The notes beneath the pieces were generated by a model, which was given only the letters and a program-made list of their open reading frames with translations, made no database searches and had not been told where the DNA came from. From an uncultured Roseobacter sp. (GTDB taxonomy: Bacteria; Pseudomonadota; Alphaproteobacteria; Rhodobacterales; Rhodobacteraceae), in contig NZ_CANMDB010000005.1 of assembly GCF_947496515.1 (NCBI RefSeq), positions 154,501-218,500 on the forward strand: a DNA stretch of 64,000 nucleotides, read 5' to 3'. The translations under genes and the position numbers were made by a program. Below are positions 390 to 53,852 of this stretch, piece by piece (the stretch's first letter is position 1; every line of letters begins with the position of its first letter).

Positions 390-447
390 GGTTCTCCTTG
401 CGAGACCGGTGCAGATATACCGGAATGCCGGCTCAATGACAGCCTGC

Positions 448-18456: not shown

Positions 18457-18490
18457 GCCAATGTTAACGAAAAAACACTTGGCGTTTTTT
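18457..18490 (+). terminator. Rho-independent terminator
   Basis: The stem is CGCCAA-TGTT against AACA-(C bulge)-TTGGCG (the 5' arm begins at 18456), with an 8-nt loop, directly followed by TTTTTT (18485-18490) and then AAAA. It isolates the upstream queuosine transporter gene from the short ORF unit downstream. Confidence 0.75.
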
Positions 18491-18530
18491 AAAACCTGTG
18501 CCACCGTCGGGACAGCAGAAACAGATAGGT

Positions 18531-18544
18531 AAAGGAGGTGATCC
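18531..18544 (+). promoter_or_regulatory. Perfect 14-nt Shine-Dalgarno sequence
   Basis: AAAGGAGGTGATCC is the exact complement of the 3' end of 16S rRNA (GGATCACCTCCTTT). It is followed by A and a GTG codon, giving 7 nt from GGAGG to the start codon, the optimal distance. Natural genes very rarely use the full complement. It can also pair with CCCCTCCT/GATC downstream (18649-18660). Confidence 0.7.
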
Positions 18545-18545
18545 A

Positions 18546-18602
18546 GTGTCAAGAAAGGTATTGGAGCGAGGTGTCGGAACAGCTTTGGAGGTCGCCTGCT
18601 GA
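18546..18602 (+). CDS. 18-codon ORF (possible micro-peptide or leader peptide)
   Basis: GTG start, 18 codons (VSRKVLERGVGTALEVAC, initiator read as Met) and TGA. The peptide has no recognised relatives from memory. Support is positional: a perfect extended Shine-Dalgarno at ideal spacing, a terminator just upstream (18457-18490) and another downstream (18675-18703), and no other gene on this strand before the divergent pair at 19 kb, so the ORF is the only candidate product of the unit. It could equally be an RNA whose translation, rather than the peptide, matters. Conservation of the amino-acid sequence has not been tested. Confidence 0.45.
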   Translation: MSRKVLERGVGTALEVAC

Positions 18603-18674
18603 GGCAGCCCTTGACGGGCAGAACTCCTGAGTGGACATCGGTCTAACCGATCCCCCTCCTGAAACCATTCGATT

Positions 18675-18703
18675 GGGCCGCACGACCACCGTGCGGCCCT
18701 TTT
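18675..18703 (+). terminator. Rho-independent terminator of the short ORF unit
   Basis: GGGCCGCAC, loop gaccacc, GTGCGGCCC, then TTTT: a perfect 9-bp GC-rich stem. On the opposite strand the stem is followed by AATC, so it serves the plus-strand transcript rather than the SpoIIAA-like gene. Confidence 0.85.
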
Positions 18704-18756
18704 ACGTGAAATCCGCGCATCAGCCAGCGGCAACAGCGCCCACCGCAAAATGCGCG

Positions 18757-19231: not shown

Positions 19232-19654
19232 ATGCTTCAGATCACCAAAGACATTGTCCTGCAGGACTGGGAACTGACAGAAAGCTTCGTGCGCGCTTCG
19301 GGCCCCGGCGGCCAGAACGTCAACAAGGTCGCCACGGCGGTCGAGTTGCGGTTCGAGGCCGCCCGCTCCCCCGCCCTCGCGCCGCCCGTCAAGACCCGTC
19401 TGAAGCGGCTCGCCGGACGCCGCTGGACCACCGAGGGCGCGCTGATCATCCAGTGTGACGAGACCCGCAGCCAGGCCCGCAACCGCGACATCGCCCGCGA
19501 CCGTCTGGCAGAACTGATCCGCAAAGCGCTCGTTCGCCCCAAAAAACGGATCCCGACACGGCCCACACCCGGCTCCAAGAAACGCCGGTTGAAGGCCAAG
19601 AAAACCCGCGGCGAGGTCAAGGCGCTGCGCGGCAAGGTCGACCCGGAGAGCTGA
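19232..19654 (+). CDS. arfB: Alternative ribosome-rescue factor ArfB (peptidyl-tRNA hydrolase)
   Basis: 140 residues with the catalytic GGQ at 26-28 (ASGPGGQNVNK) and the long basic C-terminal tail (KKRIPTRPTPGSKKRRLKAKKTR) that enters the empty mRNA channel of stalled ribosomes. It hydrolyses peptidyl-tRNA on ribosomes without a stop codon. The length and lack of codon-recognition domains separate it from release factors RF1/RF2. The frame is open upstream to 19073, but ATG 19232 follows GGGGGCGA and matches the family start. Confidence 0.94.
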   Translation: MLQITKDIVLQDWELTESFVRASGPGGQNVNKVATAVELRFEAARSPALAPPVKTRLKRLAGRRWTTEGALIIQCDETRSQARNRDIARDRLAELIRKALVRPKKRIPTRPTPGSKKRRLKAKKTRGEVKALRGKVDPES

Positions 19655-53749: not shown

Positions 53750-53775
53750 AAAAAAAGACCGGGCACAAGGCCCGG
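53750..53775 (-). terminator. Rho-independent terminator (minus strand)
   Basis: On the minus strand CCGGGC, loop cttgt, GCCCGG, TC, then TTTTTTT. A textbook terminator for either cenR or the small RNA between it and xthA. Confidence 0.85.
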
Positions 53776-53852
53776 CCAAGTCCAACAGGGAGGTGCATGC
53801 CATAACCCGGGCATACGCGGGATCTTTGATCTAGAAGGGCTACCAACGACCC
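53750..53852 (-). ncRNA. Candidate small RNA downstream of cenR
   Basis: A minus-strand segment of about 100 nt. TAATAT at 53865-53860 could be a -10 box giving a start near 53852, but no good -35 is visible. The RNA would contain GCACCTCCCTG (an anti-Shine-Dalgarno-like CACCTCC) and end in the terminator at 53750-53775. No reading frame of coding character is present. It may instead be processed from the cenR 3' UTR, since cenR ends at 53897 on the same strand. Confidence 0.4.

Follow-up and report, generated by a model that had tools for sequence, protein, structure and literature searches.

What kind of element is formed by an open reading frame (ORF) of 18 codons that stands behind a Shine-Dalgarno (SD) sequence pairing with the whole 3' tail of 16S rRNA? 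The question is raised by a locus in the window, by which we mean the 64,000-nt stretch of an uncultured Roseobacter sp. contig (NZ_CANMDB010000005.1, positions 154,501 to 218,500) analysed here. A conserved element spans positions 18531-18703 of the window (Table 1), and we consider it reasonably probable that it is an autonomous, translated, ribosome-gated small RNA (a small mRNA or dual-function RNA) that represents, in Rhodobacteraceae, a kind of RNA spread across the Alphaproteobacteria and including CC2171. The perfect SD, the GTG-initiated ORF, the downstream terminator and the CCTCCT segment complementary to the SD had all been pointed out in a first-pass annotation of the bare sequence, and each was confirmed.

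Table 1. Parts of the conserved element, in window coordinates
Feature	Position	Strand	Remark
Shine-Dalgarno (SD) AAAGGAGGTGATCC	18531-18544	+	complementary to 14-nt 16S rRNA 3' tail
ORF, GTG start, TGA stop, 18 codons + stop, MSRKVLERGVGTALEVAC	18546-18602	+	
Start hairpin UCCAGUGUC/GGUAUUGGA around start codon	18542-18565	+	predicted; little covariation
P-long 5' strand (codons 3-5), partner 18664-18670	18553-18559	+	one A-A mismatch in window
P1 5' strand GTCGG (codons 10-11), partner 18647-18651	18573-18577	+	
P2 5' strand (codons 13-15), partner about 18624-18633	18582-18590	+	
P3 small hairpin at stop codon, loop CARN	18602-18611	+	
Local hairpin ATCGGT/ACCGAT	18637-18651	+	3' arm doubles as P1 3' strand
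Anti-SD segment CCTCCT	18655-18660	+	predicted SD partner
P-long 3' strand, ahead of terminator	18664-18670	+	
Intrinsic terminator	18675-18703	+	stem 18675-18699, TTTT to 18703

The SD is the exact complement of the tail ...CTGGATCACCTCCTTTCT, which was read in four family genomes, two of the same genus and two of the same family; no 16S gene was found in the window's own assembly. No other of the 5448 NTG triplets on the two strands of the window is predicted to form as strong a duplex with the tail as this GTG (-26.6 kcal/mol vs -20.4 kcal/mol for the next best), and the 4.9-Mb assembly contains the exact 14-mer a single time. The core AAAGGAGGTG is kept in all 40 model matches that lack the exact SD pattern; it is followed by GTCC, which wobble-pairs (G-U) with 16S, in 25 of them, by ATCC in two and by other bases in 13, so that 27 of the 40 carry the exact or the wobble form (two further loci without the exact pattern, L025 and L026, were judged by eye only). 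The constraint therefore covers 10 nt and usually the rest of the tail, exact or wobble. An origin as an antisense 16S fragment was rejected, the complementarity stopping at the G of the start codon, where 16S continues with CC and the element with TG.

The element is widespread in the family. So that the SD could be judged outside the query, a covariance model (R1) was made from the start codon onward, with the SD excluded, using alignment A2. R1 matches 99 of 120 genera of the family, 98 of them at an E-value of 2.1e-8 or better, and second matches within a genome are weak (1.3e-4 or worse). A DNA search recovered the element in all 18 other same-genus genomes and in 29 of 59 genomes overall, the last three of the 29 matching by SD and start only. 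The pattern GGAGGTGATCCANTG matches 65 of the 120 genera (reversed control, none), with nine of the loci behind its matches being due to chance. The lack of conservation in relatives that the first-pass annotation had named as counting against it is thus not what was found. Before loci were counted, L053, L069, L087, L088, L089, L093, L098 and L100 were dropped as lying in a dnaE reading frame (by eye), as were L101 (chance) and L135, L183 and L195 (titled as other than alphaproteobacterial); L208, titled Gammaproteobacteria, was retained. Merging identical elements reduced 190 loci to 179, comprising 95 of the family type (19 from the same genus) and 84 of another type, of which L055, L056 and L060 come from the window's family and from genomes that R1 did not recover. 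With L059 and L086 excluded for lack of a terminator match, 68 of the remaining 93 family-type loci are non-redundant, and 49 of these, picked by hand, make up A2. A script found a terminator in 77 of the 84 other-type loci, 72 of which were left once repeated peptides had been removed. The discarded L195, from a Nitrospinota metagenome bin (408-427, minus strand), has a similar SD, a 14-codon ORF and a terminator, and may be mis-binned.

The short unit with its own terminator that had been proposed at this locus is supported, its upstream border less so. The terminator claimed at 18457-18490 was not borne out: an A/T-rich hairpin is possible there (-10.6 kcal/mol), peculiar to the window, with GCGTTTTTT missing from all 18 same-genus relatives, and our terminator scan, which demands at least three G-C pairs, did not report it. 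In the same-genus relatives the site resembles, by eye, a -35 region. Several genera, at about 18465-18520 in the window and at the same place in several of L043-L097, also show TTGACA..ACAC..AT.TGTG.CA, in which a -35-like box is combined with a short inverted repeat; by eye it looks like a conserved promoter or operator.

Does the ORF matter as an ORF? Codon 19 is a stop in 67 of the 68 non-redundant loci (TAG 35, TGA 23, TAA 9) and CAG in the other, L046, which stops two codons later; TGG, for which 12.2 cases would be expected from independent columns, is never seen. Among the 40 further loci without the exact SD pattern, the ORF has 18 codons in 36 (stop TGA 27, TAG 7, TAA 2), 20 in three and 12 in one. 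Eight Bradyrhizobium-type loci likewise end in TAA (2), TAG (3) or TGA (3) behind near-constant DNA. Stop-codon statistics and ORF length thus indicate that the frame is under selection, as is expected of a dual-function or translated small RNA, and the apparent selection on the stop codon makes translation of the ORF very probable. Sequence kinship weakens these reading-frame arguments, but does not abolish them. It could be that the locus is a plain micropeptide gene, in which the 18-aa product carries the function and the structure serves only to tune its synthesis; the residues MSR..LE..GVGT are largely kept in the family, codons 2 and 11 being free at their third base. Yet the last six residues vary widely, codons 3-4, 10-11 and 13-15 double as helix strands (below), and other lineages pair the same plan with different peptides of 14-59 aa, so we regard a plain micropeptide gene as quite unlikely.

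Folding and covariation point to a structured RNA that extends through the ORF. The minimum free energy of the window element is low (z = -3.24, none of 200 shuffles being as low), and median z is -4.69 over 32 family loci and -3.41 over 40 loci of other lineages. RNAalifold picks the SD/anti-SD pairing, the terminator and one hairpin each at the start and at the stop. In the whole structure, whose counted columns were chosen on the same alignment, 86.4% of cells are paired, compared with 33-55% in slid controls. Two-sided (compensatory) change is seen at 23 of 30 pairs (0 of 500 shuffles) and in 110 cells vs 44.7 by shuffling, a kind of test that does not remove the relatedness of the sequences. 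When each strand's own partner was set against shuffled partners, P2 (codons 12-16) gave z -13.9 and P3 z -7.3, while two negative-control pairings were flat (z 0.2 and 1.8); L046 was left out of one round of these tests (stop hairpin, other-lineage and antiterminator). P-long, of just 5-7 bp in the family, connects codons 3-5 with the segment ahead of the terminator (z -4.9 over 68 family loci, but not significant, z -1.3, when a wider segment was taken), and all five pairs form in 36 of 68 rows, vs 18.9 by shuffling and a maximum of 28 in 1000 shuffles; AAG occurs with CTTTC, for instance, and GAA with TTCTC. P1 (codons 9-12) scores z -3.3, weaker with other borders (z -2.0). Thus P-long, P1 and P2 link the ORF to downstream segments. 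The first-pass annotation had also foreseen competing pairings, and these are supported: besides the SD/anti-SD pairing, the CCGAY segment may pair with codons 10-11 in P1 or within the ATCGGT/ACCGAT hairpin, which was confirmed with modest support (z -3.8). On these sequence statistics the element is a terminator-ended conserved unit with a near-constant SD, a selected 18-codon frame and ORF-to-downstream helices.

One might see in the exceptional strength of the SD duplex a ribosome sponge, with the perfect SD serving to hold 30S subunits; however, genomes normally carry a single strong copy, the stop codon is kept and helices lie inside the ORF, features that together indicate ordinary initiation and termination, and we give a sponge next to no chance.

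How might the parts work together? An NCCTCC or ATCTCC segment is present in 78 of the 95 family-type loci, where 13.1 would be expected, and in folding the anti-SD is predicted to lie over the SD in 62 of 68 sequences. Changes in the SD/anti-SD pairing are one-sided (wobble) only, because the SD hardly varies. In L077 and L137 the 3' segment pairs better with codons 6-8 than with the SD, and in L049 it pairs poorly; pairing of the anti-SD with codons 6-9 in place of the SD was rejected as a general feature, showing no covariation overall (z -0.8) apart from the exceptions L077 and L137. As the SD/anti-SD pairing crosses P-long, the two can coexist only as a pseudoknot and must otherwise alternate. 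When an initiating ribosome was imposed in the folding, the unpaired fraction of the anti-SD rose modestly, from 0.04 to 0.25 (0.07 to 0.15 in the window), the segment being more open in 54 rows and less open in three. It is because the SD folds with the anti-SD, and the anti-SD partly opens under an imposed ribosome, that we favour a ribosome-gated small RNA. In the free RNA the anti-SD segment is predicted to cover the SD; a 30S subunit would win the SD from this cis-encoded copy of the 16S tail, initiation would open both P-long and the start hairpin, and the RNA may thereby switch back and forth between a closed fold without translation and an open fold with it. What is conserved would then be the act of translation and not the peptide, which is not the same from lineage to lineage. 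As to the output, we can only guess at RNA stability, or at the freed C-rich anti-SD segment acting on other mRNAs.

The gene neighbourhood would fit a different role. Of the 95 family-type loci, 93 have a queuosine-precursor transporter gene (VUT, TIGR00697) upstream and 87 have arfB (NF006718) downstream on the same strand; the other eight gave no arfB match in the flanking DNA searched. In 72 of the 95, arfB begins 176-347 nt past the SD and immediately follows the terminator, so that a further promoter would hardly fit in between. The element could therefore be a transcription attenuator of the leader-peptide type, translation of the ORF deciding whether polymerase reads through into arfB, and such control would be attractive given that ArfB is a ribosome rescue factor that acts on stalled ribosomes. 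Against this, the antiterminator that it would call for shows no covariation in the one candidate tested, the post-stop segment with the 5' arm of the terminator (z -0.8, 220/1000). In the window an opposite-strand SpoIIAA-like gene intervenes between the element and arfB, which starts at 19232, and yet the element is present in all 18 other same-genus genomes. Only two of the 84 other-type loci have arfB in their flanking DNA, in both cases upstream and on the other strand. An arfB attenuator thus seems unlikely; read-through control of arfB is possible in much of the family, while the element persists without the arfB link in the window's genus. The independence from any downstream gene claimed for the locus accordingly holds in the window, but not in the 72 family-type loci with arfB right behind the terminator. 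A class-wide link to VUT was rejected, since tblastn with the window's VUT matched none of the 84 other-type loci, whose flanks differ in length.

Relatives of the element extend beyond the family. The pattern AAAGGAGGTGATCCANTG was found in 36 of the 385 class genomes searched and its reversed control in none of them, and in the loci inspected (30 + 80) a short ORF then follows, with few exceptions. The other-type peptides differ and measure 14-59 aa, with an MSHCH..TWI type and, in Bradyrhizobium and others, a KRCHLAGIAR type; carriers among the matches listed include Ruegeria, Methylobacterium, Bosea, Azospirillum, Brevundimonas and Falsiroseomonas. Pairing of codons 1-8 with the 18 nt before the terminator is strong in other-type loci (z -11.3, 63 of 72), whereas the anti-SD is little enriched there (15 of 78 vs 9.9 expected). 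R1, run on 55 other-type loci picked by hand from the 84, gave start-codon matches at E <= 0.01 in L202, L166, L110, L184, L118, L122, L128, L177 and L113; the match in L188 is displaced, and the remaining rows fall on terminators or on the opposite strand. Four loci (L206 and L176, both from Azospirillum, L103 and L116) have, in place of an ORF of 14-31 codons, a perfect SD before one of 56-59 codons that resembles a secreted small protein, and in L108 the element lies about 190 nt ahead of an apparent infA (IF-1), by eye.

No known family had come to mind when the locus was first annotated, a statement that fails because the Rfam family RF01867 (CC2171, a Caulobacter sRNA) is related. Its model scores 36.4 bits against the window stretch (E 2e-6, or 8.4e-6 for the genome), short of the curated cut-off of 75 bits, so that Rfam at its gathering score gives no match at the locus, and many consensus pairs are non-standard in Rfam's alignment of the window. 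RF01867 matches 39 of 190 class genomes at E <= 0.001, seven of them over the cut-off; six of those seven loci are also SD-pattern loci (L113, L117, L119, L121, L123, L127) and the seventh, L253, has GGTCC. Both kinds share the AAAGGAGGUGAUCCAGUGUC 5' part, the terminator and a helix from just past the start codon to the bases before the terminator (the RF01867 model has 159 positions). They differ in that the over-cut-off loci mostly carry MSHCH-type ORFs, whereas the family type adds the anti-SD segment predicted to cover the SD, and the Rfam entry line reads sRNA and names no ORF. Rfam's CC2171 'sRNA' is, by sequence comparison, the nearest known relative of the element. This classification, together with the enrichment of the C-rich segment in the family-type loci, would fit a non-coding base-pairing sRNA whose CACCUCC segment is a seed against mRNA SDs and whose ORF is a by-product. 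Such an RNA, however, would need neither the selection on its stop codon nor the SD retained in every match lacking the exact pattern, and we give it very little chance.

A bolder reading is that, across the class, the element senses free 30S subunits: its SD matches the whole 16S tail, and cis copies of pieces of that tail compete with the ribosome for it. Such a piece is CACCUCC-like in the 78 of 95 family-type loci noted above, and the motif [CU]UGGAUC occurs early in the ORF of 10 of 78 other-type loci, vs 1.1 expected. With the element ahead of arfB in Rhodobacteraceae, a scarcity of free ribosomes would, in such a sensor, change arfB expression. We think it improbable that the element is a sensor of this kind, but if it were, free 30S subunits would be gauged directly by an RNA, in a class one of whose members, Caulobacter, has no SD at most of its start codons (75.4%; PMC4117421). 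Independently of the sensor, a catalogued and hardly studied 'sRNA' becomes probably a translated element with a testable design, its range now takes in most of the genera sampled in one family, and a context is provided for the strongest SD in these genomes.

Previous work offers partial parallels. In the literature on CC2171 and RF01867 the relevant mentions are table rows only; the main text of a Caulobacter RIL-seq paper does not name CC2171, and a few arfB- or VUT-like words looked for in the main texts of Ruegeria and Paracoccus sRNA papers gave nothing. The rnTrpL/peTrpL RNA of Sinorhizobium meliloti is also a small RNA with a translated ORF, of 14 codons, but it is leaderless and is the trp attenuator, with no SD involved (PMC10117765, PMC7298713). 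Extended SD motifs in Staphylococcus aureus likewise pair with 16S past the SD core toward the start codon; there they are described as a general feature of about 30% of initiation sites, whereas here a single locus per genome is concerned (PMC13009471). Pos19 of Rhodobacter sphaeroides is a small coding RNA in Rhodobacteraceae too, likened here by description, and differs in its 219-nt length and its place in the RpoE regulon (PMC5036791). Elsewhere in the window, positions 53751-53823 on the minus strand match the Rfam family SorX, a singlet oxygen resistance sRNA, with 92.5 bits.
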